IMG/VR virus record: IMGVR_UViG_3300005914_000007
Span: 1-62,504 of that record
Length of the DNA stretch: 62,504 nucleotides
Reading direction: 5' to 3' (one strand)
DNA from: a virus
This document shows, one piece after another, positions 3,067 through 62,504 of the stretch. The first letter of the stretch is position 1; each line of letters opens with the position of its first letter. The translations under genes and the position numbers were made by a program. Below the pieces are notes generated by a model. The model worked only from the letters and a program-made list of their open reading frames with translations. It did no database searches and was not told the DNA's origin.

Positions 3067-3118
3067 ATGAACTACACATCAGCTAAAGACTGATGTGTTT
3101 TACGTTCCGTTATATAAA
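3067..3118 (-). repeat. Repeat copy A: IS605/TnpB right-end-like hairpin element
   Basis: Read on the minus strand: TTTATATAACGGAACG, then AAA, then a perfect 9-bp hairpin (arms ACACATCAG and CTGATGTGT, loop TCTTTAG), then AGTTCAT. The stop codon of the neighbouring homing-nuclease gene (TTT ATA TAA) is formed by the left end of the repeat. It shares nearly all positions with copies C and D and its hairpin with copy E. Confidence 0.7.
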
Positions 3119-5445: not shown

Positions 5446-5493
5446 TTTATATGACGGAACGTAAAACACACAAGTCTTTAGCTTGTGTGATGT
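5446..5493 (+). repeat. Repeat copy B: IS605/TnpB right-end-like hairpin element
   Basis: TTTATATGACGGAACG is followed by a perfect 8-bp hairpin (arms CACACAAG and CTTGTGTG around TCTTTAG). The right flank differs from the other copies (ATGTAAG instead of AGTTCAT). The element is itself enclosed by inverted flanks (TTTGATTTATA before 5451 and TATAAATCAAATCATT at 5501-5516), making a larger cruciform. Confidence 0.65.
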
Positions 5494-5516
5494 AAGTAAG
5501 TATAAATCAAATCATT

Positions 5517-12426: not shown

Positions 12427-12638
12427 GAACATTTGATTCAAGTGATATGACAAGATGGGATAAAAGGTTTATATGACGGAACGTAAAACACACAAGTCTT
12501 TAGCTGATGTGTAGTTTATGAAATTAAACGTATTTCGTCTAATCACGGGAAACCATTATATTTGATGATACATATGATGAACAACCGGAGTTTTTAACCA
12601 AATCTAGAATTTCTAAATTAGAAGATTTGTTAAATTAA
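12423..12638 (+). pseudogene. Small gene interrupted by repeat copy C and a frameshift
   Basis: The frame starts at an ATGA overlap with nadV and reads MRTFDSSDMTRWDKRF before the repeat supplies FI-stop at 12476. If the repeat is removed between TTTAT (12472) and 12520, the frame continues for another 15 codons (MKLNVFRLITGNHYI). After one further base slip near 12560 it runs on as FDDTYDEQPEFL to a stop at 12636-12638. The restored protein would be about 56 residues. The reconstruction is inference; the 3' end overlaps the convergent gene by 4 nt. Confidence 0.55.
12468..12519 (+). repeat. Repeat copy C: IS605/TnpB right-end-like hairpin element inside a gene
   Basis: TTTATATGACGGAACGTAAA, an imperfect hairpin around TCTTTAG, then TGTGTAGTTTAT. 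It is the copy that most clearly looks inserted, because coding sequence is found on both sides. The sequence right after the element would be the guide position in a TnpB-type omega RNA. Confidence 0.7.
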
Positions 12639-17501: not shown

Positions 17502-19160
17502 TTAATTTTTCAAATCGATATCTTCATTAATAAATACCCATTTAGAACTACCACAATCCCACAACCTAAAATACCCCCTTTCATGCATTATTTCAATCTC
17601 TGTTTTGTGTATATCATACCCCTGAGAAACCAATTTATCCTTTCTGAAGTTAAATCTGTGACACCTTCGTTTATCAACTACCCAATAATAATTTGGTACT
17701 GTATTTGAGATGCGTTTAAACCCAATCATTTTATACAATGATCCATCATATCTAGATGTGTCAGCGTAGCTTATTATACACAGTGGTTTGTAATTTTTCA
17801 AAAAATATTTGAATAACCTGGAAGCACCACCAACAACAACAGTATTAATCTTATTACAAAATCTTAACATCTCATAATGACCTTCAACAGAAGAGTGACC
17901 AAGTGATTTACGCAAATTTCCAAAATTCATAAAACAAACCAATTCATCATTATGGAATAGTCCTAATTTTACTTTTGATCCTATAAACCCCTGTAAGTGA
18001 TTGGTATCTAAAAACTCACGTATAATATTATTATCTTTAATCAATCTAACTTCACAAGTTCTACCATATATTCTTTTGGGTGTTTTACCAATCTTATTTA
18101 GGATTATGGATTTAACTATATCCGTTTTATAAACCCAATCATCTTCCCATATATGTAAAAGTTTAATACCATTATCCTCACAAGATAATGTTTTGTCTAA
18201 ATGATATGTATTTTTTTTATATATCTCAGAATGCCAATATAACCCGTTGAACTCAATACCAACCTTTAAATCCGATATATATATATCCAATTCCATACCA
18301 GATAAGACAGTTCTATTATTCAAATCACAACTGATGTGTTCGGATATGAAATTAAACACTTCATTTTGTTTTACATTTTGTTTTAAAGGATTACAACCCG
18401 TACAAACCACATCACACTTAAATATCCTTTTATTTCTCAAAGATGTTAATATTTTAAAGTCATTTTTACACTCAATACAATTTATCACATACTCACCATT
18501 TTTGGATGATTTTAAAACACCAATATCCGATAGTTTTTCATACATTTTTTCATACCACTTTTCACGAACTCCTTTCTTAAAATCTTCCGTCTTTGAAAAA
18601 TTACACACACCATACCTATACATGCACGTATTAACCATCTTATTCAATATGTCTGGATTCATAGATGGGTACTCATATCCAAATTTTTTAATATTCGTAT
18701 TTTTCACCTTATCCTTAACCTTCTTAGATGATGATGGATACCTTACCCCATATTTAACAAGTGATGTTTTTCCGGCCAGTTCCCTATTGTTATAATTACC
18801 ATCACCATATTTATTATATTTAGTCTCCTTTATAATACTTTTAACGGATTCGATTTGGAATGTATTCTCAACTCCATATTTTCGTAAATTAGTTTCCTTG
18901 GTTTTTATCAACACACACACCCGTGAACAGGCAAATTTAAATTCACCAACATTTGTCTGTTTATTATAATCTTTAATAGATATTTCTTTTTTACAAGAAC
19001 AGTAATCACATTTAGCGTTAATTTTAATACTGGATCCCTTTGTTATATACAAACTGGATACCGTAACAAAATCACCAATCGATCCATAACCCAGTATATT
19101 ACTATAATAGGACACATTCTTATTGGATAATTTAATTCTAATATCTTCTGGTATTATCAT
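17502..19160 (-). CDS. Large homing endonuclease, paralogue 1 (VSR-like nuclease, GNAT-like C-terminus)
   Basis: 552 residues in four parts. A cysteine-containing N-terminus (CDYCSCKK near 50) is followed by several K-Y-G-x-x-x-P/F repeats that are typical of phage homing nucleases and probably bind DNA. A VSR-like nuclease core follows (ELDIYISDLKVGIEFNG-LYWHSE, then HIWEDDW). The C-terminal domain (LQGFIGSKVKLGLFHNDELV to the end) looks acetyltransferase-like. Its organisation is shared with the genes at 43209 and 57076. A TAATATATA box sits 4 nt before the ATG. It separates the primase gene from the HNH region and needs no operon partner. Confidence 0.8.
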   Translation of the reverse strand: MIIPEDIRIKLSNKNVSYYSNILGYGSIGDFVTVSSLYITKGSSIKINAKCDYCSCKKEISIKDYNKQTNVGEFKFACSRVCVLIKTKETNLRKYGVENTFQIESVKSIIKETKYNKYGDGNYNNRELAGKTSLVKYGVRYPSSSKKVKDKVKNTNIKKFGYEYPSMNPDILNKMVNTCMYRYGVCNFSKTEDFKKGVREKWYEKMYEKLSDIGVLKSSKNGEYVINCIECKNDFKILTSLRNKRIFKCDVVCTGCNPLKQNVKQNEVFNFISEHISCDLNNRTVLSGMELDIYISDLKVGIEFNGLYWHSEIYKKNTYHLDKTLSCEDNGIKLLHIWEDDWVYKTDIVKSIILNKIGKTPKRIYGRTCEVRLIKDNNIIREFLDTNHLQGFIGSKVKLGLFHNDELVCFMNFGNLRKSLGHSSVEGHYEMLRFCNKINTVVVGGASRLFKYFLKNYKPLCIISYADTSRYDGSLYKMIGFKRISNTVPNYYWVVDKRRCHRFNFRKDKLVSQGYDIHKTEIEIMHERGYFRLWDCGSSKWVFINEDIDLKN

Positions 19161-43208: not shown

Positions 43209-44810
43209 ATGATTTTAGATAACATAGTTGATATTAAGATAAGTAAAAAAACAGTAACATATTATAAATCCAGGGGATATGATTGTAATATTGGTAAAAT
43301 TACATCTATTAAAGTATCAGATTTACAGTGTGGTAGCCATGTTAAAATAAATGTCAAGTGTGATATCTGTGAATGTGAGAAATTTATAATGTATCAAAAA
43401 TATCTCAAAAATATACAAAACCAGAACACTTATTCTTGTAGTAGTAAATGTGCTCAATTCAAGGTGAGGAAAACAACTATGGAAAAGTATGGAAGTGAAT
43501 ATTATACACAAACATCCGAATATAATACTCGTGTTAAGGAAACAAATATGTCTAAATATGGTGTTGAATTTTTCCTATCCAGTGAGTATGTAAAGGAATC
43601 AATATCCAAAACAAATTTAAGAAAATATGGATATGAAAATGTATTCTCATCCCCACATATAATAGATAAAATCCAACAAACAAATAAAAAGAAATATGGT
43701 AATATAAATCCAAGTAAAAATAGTGAAATTAAAAAAAAAATAAGCAAAAAATTAACAAAATCTTGGAAAAACAAATGTGTGGATTTCTACACCGATATAA
43801 ATATAATCAACTATGAAAATGGTGTTTATAATATATTATGTGATAAAGGACATAAATACGATATAACGAATACATTATTATGTAATAGAAGAGTTATGAA
43901 CCTAAATACTTGTACTGAGTGTTTCCCGGTATCTGATAATAAATCACAACAGGAAAAAGAACTTCTCAATTATATAAAATCGATATATGATGGTGAAATA
44001 TTGGAGAATACTAAATCAGTTATACACCCATTGGAATTAGACATATATTTACCCGATTTAAAAATGGCTTTTGAGTATAATGGGTTGTTTTGGCATAGTG
44101 AGTTGAATAAATCAAAAAACTATCATTTACGAAAAAATATATTATGTAAAGAAGTTGGTGTTGAACTGATACAAGTATGGTCTGATGATTGGGAATATAA
44201 ACAGGATATTATCAAATCAATTATACGTAATAAATTTAATTTAAACCTAAATAAAATATTTGCTAGAAAATGTACCATATCAGAAATAACACACAAAGAA
44301 TCTAAGGAATTTTTACAAAAAAACCATCTTCAGGGTAGTGTGAATTCAAAATATAGAATCGGTCTGATATATAATGATGAATTAGTATCTGTTATGAGTT
44401 TTGGTAAAACAAGGAAACCATTGGGTGAGAATGGCGATAAATATGAACTGACCAGGTTTGCTAGTGTATTAAATACCAATGTAATTGGCGGAGCTTCTAG
44501 AATACTCAAATATTTCACGAAAACATATTTAAACACATCAGAAGAAATAGTCAGTTATTATGATAAAACGTTTGGGTATAGTAATTTTTATGAAAAAATA
44601 GGATTTACCTATATCAAGGATACGAAACCTGGGTATAGTTATATAATTGATGGTATTAGACACAATAGGTATAATTATAATAAAGGTCGATTGGTTAAAC
44701 AGGGATATGATAGTGATAAGAGTGAACACGAAATAATGAAACAACGGAAAATATATAGAATATATGATGTTGGTAACATTAAGTATGTTTATGAAGTGAT
44801 GGGAACATGA
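43209..44810 (+). CDS. Large homing endonuclease, paralogue 2
   Basis: 533 residues: CDICECEK Cys motif near 57, K-Y-G repeats (100-200), VSR-like core (LELDIYLPDLKMAFEYNGLF, WHSE, VWSDDW), and a C-terminal acetyltransferase-like region (SKYRIGLIYNDELVSVMSF). It shares its N-terminal sequence with the frameshifted copy at 24779 and its order of domains with 17502 and 57076. It stands alone between the amidoligase gene and the tail cluster, as expected for a free-standing homing gene. Confidence 0.8.
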   Translation: MILDNIVDIKISKKTVTYYKSRGYDCNIGKITSIKVSDLQCGSHVKINVKCDICECEKFIMYQKYLKNIQNQNTYSCSSKCAQFKVRKTTMEKYGSEYYTQTSEYNTRVKETNMSKYGVEFFLSSEYVKESISKTNLRKYGYENVFSSPHIIDKIQQTNKKKYGNINPSKNSEIKKKISKKLTKSWKNKCVDFYTDINIINYENGVYNILCDKGHKYDITNTLLCNRRVMNLNTCTECFPVSDNKSQQEKELLNYIKSIYDGEILENTKSVIHPLELDIYLPDLKMAFEYNGLFWHSELNKSKNYHLRKNILCKEVGVELIQVWSDDWEYKQDIIKSIIRNKFNLNLNKIFARKCTISEITHKESKEFLQKNHLQGSVNSKYRIGLIYNDELVSVMSFGKTRKPLGENGDKYELTRFASVLNTNVIGGASRILKYFTKTYLNTSEEIVSYYDKTFGYSNFYEKIGFTYIKDTKPGYSYIIDGIRHNRYNYNKGRLVKQGYDSDKSEHEIMKQRKIYRIYDVGNIKYVYEVMGT

Positions 44811-54247: not shown

Positions 54248-54299
54248 TTTATATAACGGAACGTAAAACACATAAGTCTTTAGCTGATGTGTAGTTCAT
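54248..54299 (+). repeat. Repeat copy D: IS605/TnpB right-end-like hairpin element
   Basis: TTTATATAACGGAACG, then a hairpin with arms ACACATAAG / CTGATGTGT (one mismatch) around TCTTTAG, then TAGTTCAT. It is intergenic between two minus-strand operons and has the full left part, like A and C. The surrounding 54182-54358 holds nothing else recognisable. Confidence 0.7.
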
Positions 54300-55360: not shown

Positions 55361-57076
55361 ATGAACTTTATACAGATATCATTCAATAATATAAAGGCCG
55401 AGACCGAAAGATTTCTTAGACAGGAACACAGTAAGGCTTCTCTACTTTATTCACCAGCATCACCATTTGGGCATATATTATCAGCAATACAGAATTATCA
55501 ACAGTTATCTTTCCTGTACCTTAAAAATGCTCTAAGAGGTTTTGATTTGAGTTTACCAAATTCAAATAATCCTAAGATAATAAGAAATGCTGCCATATTC
55601 GCAGGTCATAGTCCAGGAAGAGCTATCTCATCAACCGGAACCCTTAAATTGGCTGTTAAATCTGGGATAGACCTCGAAACAGAATTGAGAGGTGGTCGTG
55701 TAACACTTAAAAATAGATTATTACTGAAGAATAACACAAACGGACTTTTCTACTCACTCAATCTTGGTCAAGATAAAATAACATATCAGGTAAGTACAAC
55801 AACTCAGATATTCTTACCAATAATACAGGGTAGAAGTAAAGAAACCAAATTCACTGGTAAAGGAGAAATAAATTCTTCATACCAAGTAGCACTTAAAGGA
55901 AATCAAAACATAGAAAACTTCAATGTTGAGGTACTTGTGAATGGTCAATATTGGATAGTAAAGAAGCATCTTTATGAATTATTGCCTAGTGAAAAATCAT
56001 GCGTTGTTAAAACAGGATTTAACGATGGTATTGATGTTATATTTGGAAATGGAGGATTTGGTAAGATACCTGACATTGGATCAACAATAATAATAAAATA
56101 CTTAGTGACTGACGGTAGTGTGGGTAATATATTTAGAAGAACTCCGAACGACTGGACATTTGTTGAAGATGCACTCGATGGGTTTGGTGGTACATTAGAT
56201 GTAACATCCATTTTTGACATACTCATTTTTAATGACATAAACTTTGGTAGTGATAAAGAGAGTGTTAAATTTACTAAGAATCTATTACCAATAGCTTCGA
56301 ATAACTTTGTACTTGGATTACCACAACAATACGCATACGAGATTAAAAAATTGGGAGTTTTCTCTCATGTAAATGCTTATGAGAACGATAGTATTATATT
56401 CATCGTAGCCACACCAAACATAAGATTGTTTAAGAATAGAAATGCTGATTACTTCTCAGTTAATATCACAGCCTTTGAATTAGATGATTATGAGAAATCG
56501 AAACTTGATAAATACATCCGTGGAAATGGTAATATACAATTGACTCGTAAGTATAGAATCGATTCACCCAAGTTATCATATTACATAATAAATGTTTTCA
56601 TCGTTAGATATTCGGATGTAAATGACGATTCCGTAAATGCACAAATAACCGACATCGTATCAGAATACTTTTTGGACTTAAATAGAATAAGTAGGATACC
56701 GAAATCTGACCTTATATCAAGTTTAGCTGGTTTAAATGATATACACTCAGTTGATGTACAATTCATATCTAAGAAGAATGAAGACTATCACAGAAACAAT
56801 AAGATAAAGTCCGATAATAAATTGGCGGCATCTGAATCACGAATAGCTCCTATTGGAACCGAAATTGATCCGGATTACCAACCAGATTTGGCAGTAGGTC
56901 TTGACCCAGTACTTGGTGATATTCTCTTCGAATCAGAAGAATATCCAATTGTGAGAGGTGGTTGGTATGACCGCAATGGTGTTTATTTCTCACCAGATAT
57001 AAAAGACACTAATCTTAAATCAATAAACATAATAAAGACTGGTGTTGTTGATTCAAAACAAAGGAGTAATAAATAA
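55361..57076 (+). CDS. Baseplate wedge protein (gp6/baseplate J-like)
   Basis: 571 residues. Residues about 218-255 read DVIFGNGGFGKIPDIGSTII, then TDGSVGNI. This matches the baseplate J / gp6 signature [VI]-x-F-G-[DN]-G-x-x-G-x-x-P-x-x-G. The N-terminal helix and C-terminal extension (FESEEYPIVRGGW) are also consistent with a wedge. T4 gp6 has 660 residues. It connects baseplate wedges and sheath. The gene is followed directly by a homing nuclease starting on its last base. Confidence 0.8.
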   Translation: MNFIQISFNNIKAETERFLRQEHSKASLLYSPASPFGHILSAIQNYQQLSFLYLKNALRGFDLSLPNSNNPKIIRNAAIFAGHSPGRAISSTGTLKLAVKSGIDLETELRGGRVTLKNRLLLKNNTNGLFYSLNLGQDKITYQVSTTTQIFLPIIQGRSKETKFTGKGEINSSYQVALKGNQNIENFNVEVLVNGQYWIVKKHLYELLPSEKSCVVKTGFNDGIDVIFGNGGFGKIPDIGSTIIIKYLVTDGSVGNIFRRTPNDWTFVEDALDGFGGTLDVTSIFDILIFNDINFGSDKESVKFTKNLLPIASNNFVLGLPQQYAYEIKKLGVFSHVNAYENDSIIFIVATPNIRLFKNRNADYFSVNITAFELDDYEKSKLDKYIRGNGNIQLTRKYRIDSPKLSYYIINVFIVRYSDVNDDSVNAQITDIVSEYFLDLNRISRIPKSDLISSLAGLNDIHSVDVQFISKKNEDYHRNNKIKSDNKLAASESRIAPIGTEIDPDYQPDLAVGLDPVLGDILFESEEYPIVRGGWYDRNGVYFSPDIKDTNLKSINIIKTGVVDSKQRSNK

Positions 57077-58755
57077 TGTTAATATCTAAAACATCAATCG
57101 TTAAATCAAGAGGTAATAATAAATTATCATATTATAGTGAAGTTGGATATGATACCTCCAATCCAACTTTTGAAGTAATAATTAATGACCTATTACCAAA
57201 CTCATCTTATATAGTTGAGGTTTCATGTGATTACTGTAATGATATTATAAAAACTCCATATAAAAGGTATATTAAGAATACAACCACTTCACTTGTGAGG
57301 AAATATGCATGTAAAGGATGTGTTACTGATAAAAGAAAAGAATCTAATCAAATTAAGTATGGATGTGATAACCCAATGCAAAATAGGGAAGTGTTAGAAA
57401 AAACCAAAAATACAAACCTAGAAAGATATGGTGTTGAATATGTTTTACAATCCAAGGTTATTAAAGAGAAAATAAAGAAAACCAATTTGAAAAATAGTGG
57501 TTTCGAAAATCCATTCCAGTCCGAAATTATTAAAGAGAAAATAAAGAAAACCAATTTAGAAAAATATGGACATGAGAATCCATTCCAGTCCAAGGTTATT
57601 AAAGAGAAAATAAAGAAAACCAATTTAGAAAAATATGGTGTTGAATATTATACACAATCTGGTGAATTTCTATATGATAAAGAATTGAATAAGGAAAAAA
57701 TAAAGAAAACCAATTTAGAAAAATACGGTGGCCATCCAATGTCAAATGATATTATAAGAAGTGATTTTAATATATCAAATGATGTGAATTATTTATACTA
57801 TAATAGTGATAGTATATCAACATTTAAATGTCACAAGGGACACACATTCAGTATAAGTAGTGATAATTATTCATCACGTAAATGGTTTGATGTAAACATA
57901 TGTACGATATGTCAACCTATAAATTCATCAATATCGACACAGGAGAAAGAAGTATTTCATTTCATAACATCTGTATATGATGGTAAGGTTATTGAAAACT
58001 ACAGAGATGGTTTGGAGATAGATATTTATTTACCAGACATCCAAATTGGATTTGAATATAATGGATTATACTGGCACTCCGAGGAACACAAAAGTAAATA
58101 TTACCACATAAATAAATCTGAACATTTTATTGAAAGGGGAATACGTATAATTCACATATGGGAAGATGAATGGAAATATAAGTCCGGTATAATTAAAAGT
58201 CAGATAAAAAATTGGATAGGTTTAACAGATTTCAAAATACCCGGAAGGAAATGTAGTGTGATAGAATTAAAAAACCCATCAGACTTCCTAAAACATAACC
58301 ATATACAGGGTAAGTGTCCATCAAGTTTTAATTTAGGTCTTAAATATAATGACGAATTGGTATCCGTTATGTCATTTGATAGATTTGAAGGTCGTAAAAA
58401 AATGTTAGAGGGTGAGTGGAATCTATCTAGGTTTTGTAATCGTGAAAACACCATTGTTGTCGGTGGATTTTCAAAACTACTATCTTACTTCATTAAAAAT
58501 ATACACACCACCAGGATAATAACTTATGCAGATAAATCATGGAGTAATGGGTTATTATATGAAAGAACTAACTTCAAAATAACTAAAATATTGAAACCAG
58601 ATTATAAATATATACAAAACGGAATAAGATTGAATAAAACTAAGTATCGTAAAGGTCGATCTACGAATAATATGTCGGAAAAGCAATATACACAAAGTCA
58701 TAATATTAAAAAAATATATGATTGTGGTAAGATAAAATTTGAATTGATTATATGA
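57076..58755 (+). CDS. Large homing endonuclease, paralogue 3
   Basis: 559 residues. Cys motif CDYCND near 56, then four 23-residue repeats KIKKTNLEKYGxxNPFQSKV, a VSR-like core (GLEIDIYLPDIQIGFEYNGL, WHSEEHKSKYYH, HIWEDEW), and a C-terminal acetyltransferase-like part (LGLKYNDELVSVMSF). It begins on the last base of the gp6-like gene and ends 4 nt into the following gene, so it is inserted very tightly, as homing genes often are. The ATG overlaps the preceding TAA. Confidence 0.82.
   Translation: MLISKTSIVKSRGNNKLSYYSEVGYDTSNPTFEVIINDLLPNSSYIVEVSCDYCNDIIKTPYKRYIKNTTTSLVRKYACKGCVTDKRKESNQIKYGCDNPMQNREVLEKTKNTNLERYGVEYVLQSKVIKEKIKKTNLKNSGFENPFQSEIIKEKIKKTNLEKYGHENPFQSKVIKEKIKKTNLEKYGVEYYTQSGEFLYDKELNKEKIKKTNLEKYGGHPMSNDIIRSDFNISNDVNYLYYNSDSISTFKCHKGHTFSISSDNYSSRKWFDVNICTICQPINSSISTQEKEVFHFITSVYDGKVIENYRDGLEIDIYLPDIQIGFEYNGLYWHSEEHKSKYYHINKSEHFIERGIRIIHIWEDEWKYKSGIIKSQIKNWIGLTDFKIPGRKCSVIELKNPSDFLKHNHIQGKCPSSFNLGLKYNDELVSVMSFDRFEGRKKMLEGEWNLSRFCNRENTIVVGGFSKLLSYFIKNIHTTRIITYADKSWSNGLLYERTNFKITKILKPDYKYIQNGIRLNKTKYRKGRSTNNMSEKQYTQSHNIKKIYDCGKIKFELII
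57460..57666 (+). repeat. Tandem 69-bp repeat inside a homing nuclease
   Basis: Three nearly identical 69-bp units (starts at 57460, 57529, 57598), each coding for 23 residues of the K-Y-G repeat, plus a partial fourth at about 57690. The DNA-level identity implies recent duplication. Confidence 0.8.
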
Positions 58756-59924: not shown

Positions 59925-61043
59925 TTAGGTTTTATTATAATATTCTAATAAATATTCCTTATTTTTACGCTTAATCCACCTATAGCAAGTTTTACCATAT
60001 TTAATTTTAAATTCTTTAATATCCGAGCATGTGATTATAGATTCCATAGCTAAATCATCACACCAATTTACCCTATTCTTAGACAACTCACCAGTTAATT
60101 TATCAAATATTTTCATACGGTGTAGTTTATAAAATAATTTACTATTCATCTTACGTAAATCATAAATATTGTCATATTTTGATATCTCTTCTTTCATTTT
60201 CTCAACATGATAGATATTTTTATATATCACATCATAATCAACATATACATCACACACATCAATACCCAATATACATGTTAGTTGTTTTTTTATATCATAT
60301 TCATAATTATTTGAAATTTCTTTTATAAAGAAAACCATTATACCAAGTTCTTCACACATACCTTTTTTAATATTACTATTATCACCATTTCTATGCCAAT
60401 ATTTACCATCAAATTCAAATGCTATTTTAATTGAAGTGAAATACACATCCAATTCATATGGTTTAATTATTTTCCTATCATTGTACTCACATAACTCACC
60501 AAACACACTTTCTAATATGTACCGGAGTATTAATTGTGGGGTACTATATTTCCCAACATACATATGTGAACATATATCATCCAACACACCCATCCTAAGC
60601 GATGTTGTGTAGGCAACTGCATCATTTTCACAAAACTGTCCCCTCGTATAGTACTTAGATGATATTTCTTTTAATTTATCTATTGTGTATTTATAACCAC
60701 TCCTCGCCCTATTACGATCTGCTGAGATTTTTGAAATATACACATCATCTTTATATAAATTCATTTTTTTCACCATCCACCTAACTTCATCATATCCTTT
60801 ACACAACATTATAGCTATTTCTGAAGTTTCTTTTTTATTAAAATTTTCTTTCAGTAAAAAAATATCTTTATCCGACCACACATTACCAACACGTTTATAA
60901 TTTGAATCTTTTCTTAACCCCATTTTAACAGATTTGTTTAAAATCCGTCTTTTACTTTTACCCAATATATCACACAATTCATATAATTGTTTATTTGGAT
61001 AATTTAGCATTAATAATTCCACTTCATTTTCGGACCATCTCAT
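59925..61043 (-). CDS. Homing endonuclease with HTH repeats and VSR-like nuclease core
   Basis: 372 residues. Two helix-turn-helix or SANT-like modules (MRWSENEVELLMLNYPN and VWSDKDIFLLKENFNKKE) precede a nuclease core (KPYELDVYFTSIKIAFEFDG, KYWHRNG, VFFIKE). The C-terminal part repeats short helical motifs for DNA contact. It is unrelated in its N-terminus to the three large paralogues, which shows a different DNA-binding module with the same nuclease. A TTATATATA box is 4 nt before the ATG. Neighbour: a DNA methyltransferase. Confidence 0.75.
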   Translation of the reverse strand: MRWSENEVELLMLNYPNKQLYELCDILGKSKRRILNKSVKMGLRKDSNYKRVGNVWSDKDIFLLKENFNKKETSEIAIMLCKGYDEVRWMVKKMNLYKDDVYISKISADRNRARSGYKYTIDKLKEISSKYYTRGQFCENDAVAYTTSLRMGVLDDICSHMYVGKYSTPQLILRYILESVFGELCEYNDRKIIKPYELDVYFTSIKIAFEFDGKYWHRNGDNSNIKKGMCEELGIMVFFIKEISNNYEYDIKKQLTCILGIDVCDVYVDYDVIYKNIYHVEKMKEEISKYDNIYDLRKMNSKLFYKLHRMKIFDKLTGELSKNRVNWCDDLAMESIITCSDIKEFKIKYGKTCYRWIKRKNKEYLLEYYNKT

Positions 61044-61121: not shown

Positions 61122-61847
61122 ATGGATGTTAATAAAATTTATTTAGGGGATTGTATAGATATAATGGATGATAGAATCGATGATAATTCAATTGATTTAA
61201 TTGTAACTGATCCACCATATGGTATAAATTACCAATCATTTCGAACTAATTCAAACATTATTAAAAATGATGATAATCTTCACTGGCTAGAAAACTTTTT
61301 CAAAATACTGAATACAAAAGCTAAAGACAACACACACCTTTACTGTTTTTGTGATTTTGAGATGTCTGCCGATTTCCTTATTGAGATAAGGAAATATTGG
61401 AAGGTTCGTAATATGTTGTGTATTCCACGTAAAATTAAAGGAAATGGTGGTGACCGTATATTTCAACAGCAGTTTGAAACTGTAATTTTCGCAACAAAGA
61501 AACAGGGTAGGAAATTCAACCAAACACAAATACTTAAACCCTCAGAGGGTTATTTGAAAGATAAGAGGTATAAGGCGAAAGAATGGCTTTATAGACTACC
61601 AGACCACTGGCATTGGACCACATCAAGTGAATTCAACCATACTAGACTACATCCAAACCAAAAGAATGTTGAATGTCTTAAAGATATGATATCATTATCA
61701 TCCAATCCGGGTGAAATAGTATTTGACCCATTTGTTGGTAGTGGTTCGACTTGTGTGGCTGCCAAAGAACTCAATAGAAAATATATCGGTTGTGAATTGG
61801 ATGAAAATTATTTCGAAATATCAACAAATAGACTTAACTCAATATGA
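61122..61847 (+). CDS. DNA methyltransferase (adenine-N6/cytosine-N4, beta-type order)
   Basis: 241 residues. The catalytic motif IV DPPYGINY (residues 30-37) comes before the SAM-binding motif I FDPFVGSGST (about 202-211), which defines the beta class. FIGCELDENYF-like residues (KYIGCELDENYFEI) follow. It is likely an orphan methylase, protecting phage DNA or accompanying a nuclease. Its stop codon lies inside repeat copy E. Confidence 0.88.
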   Translation: MDVNKIYLGDCIDIMDDRIDDNSIDLIVTDPPYGINYQSFRTNSNIIKNDDNLHWLENFFKILNTKAKDNTHLYCFCDFEMSADFLIEIRKYWKVRNMLCIPRKIKGNGGDRIFQQQFETVIFATKKQGRKFNQTQILKPSEGYLKDKRYKAKEWLYRLPDHWHWTTSSEFNHTRLHPNQKNVECLKDMISLSSNPGEIVFDPFVGSGSTCVAAKELNRKYIGCELDENYFEISTNRLNSI

Positions 61848-61886
61848 ACTACACATTAGCTAAAGACTAATGTGTTTCGGGTTTCA
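61844..61886 (-). repeat. Repeat copy E: hairpin element attached to a tnpB end
   Basis: On the minus strand: perfect 9-bp hairpin (arms ACACATTAG / CTAATGTGT) around TCTTTAG, then AGTTCAT. The left arm contains the stop codon (TAG) of the tnpB-derived reading frame. The following bases, where a guide would lie, are antisense to the methyltransferase 3' end. Confidence 0.75.
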
Positions 61887-62391
61887 TAGAGTGTGCTTTA
61901 TTACTAAAGTCTGATTTTCTCTCCACCTTTGTATTGGACAGTCCCTGCCCAAATATTTTTAAACCTTCTTTTAGAATATTTTTACTCGCATTAATATCTC
62001 TGTCATGTGTTTCACCAAACATTGGATTTTTTTCACCCGATACATCAGCATGATTCAAACTTATATTTTTCCTATGTTCATCTGAGAATTTCATACCATT
62101 CCATCCCTCACCACCATTTGTTATATTGGTTAGTCGATGCCCTTCTTCTCTAAACTTATTAATATAGTAAATTTCTCTTTCACATAATAAATCTCTACAA
62201 TTTATAAAATCTTCGATTAAAATTATCTCTATATTTTCTTTACCAACTTTTTTAATCCAATTAGTTTTATGGTCTATTTTCTTATCATTGAGATGTCGCC
62301 TAAATCTTTCTTTTAAAGATCTGGTTGTTAATCCTATATATCTTACTTCACAAGAATTTATTTCACTAAGAGCATATATTTTATAATAGGG
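61867..62391 (-). pseudogene. GIY-YIG/NUMOD3 nuclease fused to the C-terminus of TnpB
   Basis: The open frame of 174 codons has no ATG before residue ~100, and an in-frame TAA lies at 62392-62394. The first part reads KIYALSEINSCEVRYIG and LTTRSLKERFRRHL, a clear GIY-YIG domain. Next is MKFSDEHRKNISLNH with SGEKNPMFGE, a NUMOD3 DNA-binding motif. Then THDRDINASKNILKEGLKIF and the end SMKPETH follow the end of TnpB, including the third RuvC Asp in DRD. It is probably a chimeric remnant, lacking an evident start. Confidence 0.7.
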
Positions 62392-62504
62392 TTACCCCTT
62401 TAGGTCGCACTGCATCTTATTGATTCATAGGTAATTGATTTTGTTTTCACCATTCTGTGCAGTAATTTTTCAAACATTAACTCTCTGAAGTTCAGTCTGT
62501 TGAA
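62392..62504. other. Right edge, no gene assigned
   Basis: A stretch that, on the minus strand, ends a frame reading QQTELQRVNV before a stop at 62470-62472, too short to name. ACTGCA...TGCAGT arms near 62410-62460 could pair. It may be the end of a neighbouring mobile gene or non-coding RNA. Confidence 0.3.

Follow-up and report, generated by a model that had tools for sequence, protein, structure and literature searches.

In IS200/IS605 elements of the ISDra2 type, the reRNA of TnpB is approximately 150 nt long and comprises the tnpB 3′ end together with the element's right end and about 16 nt of flanking DNA (PMC8612924), and TnpB trims its own mRNA (PMC10278001). Elements reduced to their termini are also described: in Haloquadratum, PATEs and terminal-only elements are transposase-free, palindrome-ended derivatives of IS605 elements, and the terminal-only forms of 52 bp arose through deletion of the core between the two palindromes (PMC3119063). 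IStrons join a group I intron to an IS605 element (PMC4227781).

The window analysed here is a complete IMG/VR record, a linear fragment of 62,504 bases. Like an ISDra2-type element, a locus near its end has a tnpB 3′ end, a covarying guide-RNA scaffold, a right-end hairpin and the end TAGTTCAT, and related copies are inserted after TTTAT. Unlike in such an element, its tnpB body, tnpA and left end are missing from the contig, and a GIY-YIG/NUMOD3 frame occupies the place of the tnpB body. That frame has the catalytic positions and NUMOD3 linker of the phage GIY-YIG/NUMOD3 homing endonucleases (phrog_314; Talia1610 gp111, Entf1). As in IStrons, two kinds of mobile element, an IS605 end included, are fused. 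We judge the combination to be new, its mobile parts being already known. The reading that we favour, and consider reasonably probable, is that the locus is a recombination chimera of a GIY-YIG/NUMOD3 gene and an IS200/IS605 3′ end, in which the guide-RNA scaffold was kept and from which a fusion protein is probably not made.

The fusion frame

The features of the locus, all on the minus strand, are as follows.

62416..62504, minus: flank to the contig end; frame FNRLNFRELMFEKLLHRMVKTKSITYESIRCSAT*, open to the end with its stop at 62400, overlaps the ATG/TAA part (from sequence)
62392..62415, minus: MQCDLKG*, in-frame ATG and in-frame TAA directly ahead of the GIY-YIG frame (from translation)
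62146..62385, minus: GIY-YIG catalytic domain (Pfam PF01541, alignment of phage homologues, coding score)
62002..62094, minus: NUMOD3-like linker SGEKNPMFGETH, leading into the joint (Pfam PF07460, below cut-off)
62003..62017, minus: joint TGGTGAAACACATGA, in text common to NUMOD3 (FGxTH) and TnpB (CGETHD), placed by the start of tnpB homology in L002 and L051-L054
61867..62016, minus: last 49 codons of tnpB, with the third RuvC Asp, and stop codon (amino acid identity to TnpB C-termini)
61844..61972, minus: complete omega-RNA scaffold and IS200/IS605 right end, with the end TAGTTCAT (R1 model, consensus pairs)
61852..61874, minus: right-end hairpin CACATTAG-TCTTTAG-CTAATGTG (from sequence; helices 5 and 6 of the consensus)
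61828..61843, minus: 16-nt predicted guide beyond the right end; it is antisense to the 3′ end of a DNA methylase gene (by analogy with the ISDra2 reRNA, PMC8612924)

It is apparent that one open frame of 174 codons (62391-61867, minus strand) runs from GIY-YIG through NUMOD3 into the TnpB tail, after which comes the IS200/IS605 right end. The initial annotation had described a single frame of this kind, and both the domain matches and the DNA identity to intact tnpB confirm it. The match to GIY-YIG (PF01541) scores 32.9 bits over residues 3-82. The NUMOD3 match (PF07460, residues 100-130) scores 17.6 bits, just below the cut-off of 20.4, and residues 125-139 match the Cas12f1-like TNB domain over its final 15 positions with 14.6 bits, also below the cut-off. 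PHROGs classes for the two ends of the frame are homing endonuclease and transposase, respectively. Both halves have a coding score of +0.22 bits per codon. Since this is in the range of the two homing endonucleases of the phage and the methylase that were scored (+0.20 to +0.24 bits per codon) and is far above the null of about –0.7, the frame is not a product of chance. Structure prediction without an alignment gave a pLDDT of 42, too low for use.

The conserved Tyr, Tyr, Arg, Glu and Asn catalytic positions of the GIY-YIG domain are all present in the alignment with phage homologues, and counterparts of the NUMOD3 linker are found in two homologous loci (SGERHPFYGKTHS in L041 and SGESNPFYGKKHS in L040). 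The earlier statement that the frame has no ATG start was correct only in part. An in-frame ATG, the sole one upstream, lies at 62415-62413, but an in-frame TAA at 62394-62392 (codon 8) separates it, after seven codons, from the GIY-YIG domain. Homologue L044 begins MKTYKIYKL, and the window has TAA-PYYKIYAL. Because the ATG at 62415 is blocked by this TAA, leaving no usable start codon, the GIY-YIG/TnpB-tail fusion protein is probably not produced. The locus is thus unlike the phrog_314 homing endonucleases in that it lacks a start codon and carries a TnpB tail in place of the C-terminal DNA-binding part; it does not contain a complete GIY-YIG homing endonuclease gene. The GIY-YIG frame nonetheless looks recently functional, and we take it to be a gene that was probably inactivated recently.

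For the 89 bases up to the contig end (62416..62504), no Pfam, PHROG or phage tblastn match was obtained, the coding score was ambiguous, and a DNA 20-mer from this upstream flank gave 0 matches. The upstream 34-aa frame was considered as the lost half of TnpB and rejected, as it has no similarity to TnpB and no family match.

The closest GIY-YIG homologues are 30-48% identical, and the nearest of them lie within split genes or intron-like leaders, namely those of terminase (Entf1) and RNR (Talia1610) and that in Flavobacterium phage FPSV-D18. Together with a hairpin, AGGGGUAACCCU, situated just ahead of the GIY-YIG frame, this would suit a remnant of a group I intron or of an IStron-like element, in which an intron-encoded GIY-YIG gene had met a TnpB end. 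Such an origin is nevertheless highly improbable. An Rfam search returned no group I intron match even at an E value of 10, and no P3-P8 ribozyme core was found; unlike an IStron, the locus has a GIY-YIG frame instead of a ribozyme. The interval between NUMOD3 and the omega-RNA is, moreover, too short to hold an intron's 3′ half, and the right end matches IS605 elements that are without introns.

The omega-RNA scaffold and right end

An omega-RNA-like hairpin had been noted at the end of the frame. The hairpin is present, but it is merely the last part of a complete omega-RNA scaffold of approximately 129 nt, which spans most of the TnpB stretch and overlaps the tnpB 3′ end. A consensus was built from 28 aligned copies, the window copy included. 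Its fold has 34 pairs, 15 of them with changes on both sides, and 98.0% of the cells in the alignment are paired, as against 84.9% in shuffles and 34-41% with partners slid. The window copy pairs at 34/34 consensus positions and scores 145 bits with the R1 omega-RNA model, of which it is one of the 28 building sequences. The covarying scaffold at the tnpB 3′ end runs into the right-end hairpin, which together with the end TAGTTCAT occupies 61874-61844, as expected of an IS200/IS605 right end with its omega-RNA.

In view of the covariation and the 34/34 pairs, the most fitting description of the 'TnpB C-terminus' is a complete omega-RNA scaffold that has been translated as if it were protein, a point missed in the initial annotation. 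The overlap of the guide-RNA scaffold with the end of tnpB, and not the working of a TnpB domain, would then be why the TnpB residues were retained.

The right end adjoins an N6/N4 DNA methylase gene (61122-61847) at the 3′ end of the latter. By analogy with the ISDra2 reRNA, the methylase 3′ end is the predicted guide of the window omega-RNA, and its predicted target is TTTAT followed by ATTGAGTTAAGTCTAT. If transcribed, the scaffold could be a substrate for trimming and loading by a TnpB acting in trans, with the methylase 3′ end serving as guide.

The joint

From the joint to the end of the element, the intact tnpB of L051-L054 is identical to the window at 161/177 DNA positions (91%), and that of L002 at 154/174 (89%), up to the end TAGTTCAT. 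In both cases homology begins at the same base, TGGTGAAAC. The TnpB tail has 71-82% amino acid identity to the TnpB C-termini aligned, and 90% to L051-L054. ISDra2 TnpB, for which a structure has been solved, has GETHDRDENAALN at the matching position; the third RuvC Asp, claimed for this part at the outset, is therefore present.

Homologous NUMOD3 linkers have GKTHS or GKKHS where TnpB has GETHD (CGETHDRDENAALN in ISDra2 TnpB). The NUMOD3 and TnpB alignments thus bear out that the joint falls in text similar between the two families. This likeness, together with the point at which tnpB homology starts, suggests a crossover within a short stretch alike in both parents, and the reading frame would have been kept because both parents read alike there. 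Since the best homologues of the GIY-YIG parent are just 30-48% identical, we infer the exact crossover and the recombination route rather than observe them. The initial two thirds of a GIY-YIG/NUMOD3 homing-nuclease gene were probably joined, through illegitimate recombination in this short text, to the 3′-terminal portion of an IS200/IS605 element, the partner being either a TnpB element or one already without tnpB. What was joined, the omega-RNA scaffold and right end, is seen in the sequence and its relatives beside the phage DNA methylase gene.

The joint is known from one contig only and lies about 490 bases from the contig end, each part is a member of a repeated mobile family, and the text at the joint is common to both. 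These are the circumstances in which a GIY-YIG gene and a TnpB element could be joined in assembly. The exact shared text is, however, only about 9-15 bases long, below the usual assembly k-mers, which are longer than this; the reading frame is preserved, and the right end adjoins the methylase gene at the expected end of the element. An assembly join is, on balance, unlikely.

Missing parts of the TnpB element

As a protein, the TnpB part of the recombination chimera is a stub of the last 49 residues, without RuvC-I, RuvC-II or the RNA-binding half, and an intact TnpB (RuvC-I, -II and -III with the RNA-binding half) does not exist at the locus. The N-terminal half, which the initial annotation had suggested seeking nearby, was searched for throughout the contig and is absent, as is any TnpB elsewhere in it. 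A left end, which would read TTTAT followed by ATAACGGAACGTAAAACAC, was not found for this element within the contig, whose end lies 660 bases away from the right end, and specifically not in the approximately 490 bases between the joint and the contig end.

These results bear on the two origins proposed earlier. Recombination between a homing gene and a TnpB element remains the best reading, but a swap of modules between two nucleases is unsupported as a protein event, since the TnpB remnant lacks the parts named above and what was preserved instead is the guide-RNA scaffold and right end. Invasion of a TnpB element by a homing gene accounts for the locus less well than does recombination with such an element, or with one that is tnpB-less, given that omega-RNA copies lacking tnpB are frequent among viral contigs.

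Searches for the same fusion

No second instance of the fusion was found: the pattern FGETHDRD had 0 matches in IMG/VR, and none of 80 TnpB C-terminus loci has a GIY-YIG frame upstream. Phages and plasmids gave GIY-YIG-only or TnpB-only matches, never both joined. A scan of host genomes gave two loci, neither with TnpB-type context, and one of these (L033) had no match to the omega-RNA model. A literature search found no GIY-YIG::TnpB fusion.

This lack of recurrence weighs against the idea of a working composite element, in which a GIY-YIG nuclease replaced tnpB inside an IS200/IS605 element and the omega-RNA was kept, borrowing TnpB from another element or the host. The intact catalytic residues and coding signal, the intact omega-RNA and a tnpB-like layout, with the nuclease frame overlapping its own 3′ guide RNA (a known layout; PMC8612924), all accord with it, and if true it would mean that a site-specific nuclease is paired with an omega-RNA that recruits TnpB from elsewhere. 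Yet there is no usable start codon, with the TAA standing in frame between ATG and domain, and no left end up to the contig end; we regard a composite element as quite improbable.

Two further in-frame joins involving TnpB were observed. In L099 (1-341), foreign sequence FQEYVMEYLNKQTDMFLDLKSKTG continues in frame into a TnpB zinc-finger/C-terminus that has an omega-RNA, and around position 1795 of L127 a 643-aa TnpB frame runs on in frame into seemingly glycosyltransferase-like sequence.

TnpB-less copies in viral contigs

Omega-RNA scaffolds without TnpB are frequent in viral contigs (L017/L019, L018, L023, L027, L070/L071, L076, L100, L106, L108/L109 and L121), and internal deletions occur too (e.g. 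L055). No GIY-YIG frame lies upstream of any of the TnpB-less copies. The 5′ boundary of the tnpB part kept in the window is close to that of other tnpB-less copies, such as L055, L076 and L108. In four copies (L076, L100, L106 and L108), which are miniature elements, a TTTAT-like site precedes a left-end hairpin. A 39.7-kb viral contig, G015 (IMGVR_UViG_3300045902_000325; L076, L121), has five omega-RNA matches and TnpB fragments only. The TnpB-less copies could be miniature elements or orphan guides. Several of them keep all 34 pairs.

The chimera shows that a guide-RNA scaffold can outlast a lost tnpB and become joined to other genes. An apparent 'TnpB C-terminal domain' of a fusion protein can therefore be the conceptual translation of an RNA gene. 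The chimera and the many TnpB-less copies raise the question of whether phage-borne orphan omega-RNAs work with TnpB in trans.

Genomic setting and activity of the element family

In the syntenic relative G001, the methylase is 78% identical and phage genes come directly after it; GIY-YIG, TnpB and the omega-RNA scaffold were all absent from this 151-kb record. Four more homing-endonuclease-like genes are present in the window (17502-19160, 43209-44810, 57076-58755 and 59925-61043). The last of these is absent from G001, and the other three fall in alignment gaps.

The window also contains remnants of the same element family as the omega-RNA element:

3067..3113, minus: 47-bp terminal-only element
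5451..5495, plus: solo left end, after TTTAT
12473..12519, plus: 47-bp terminal-only element
54253..54299, plus: 47-bp terminal-only element, after TTTAT (compared with G001, which lacks the insert)

The 47-bp copies are dispersed IS605-type hairpins, each consisting of a left-end arm and a right-end arm, and GTCTTTAGC occurs 7 times in the window, against 0.15 expected. They resemble the 52-bp forms of Haloquadratum; the chimera differs from the Haloquadratum elements in retaining the whole omega-RNA and in bearing a nuclease frame of foreign origin. At the site corresponding to 54252/54253, the sequence of G001 is GGATTTTTTAT, free of any insert; TTTAT is thereby supported as both target and TAM. 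The presence of these terminal-only remnants shows that the element family has been active in the phage.
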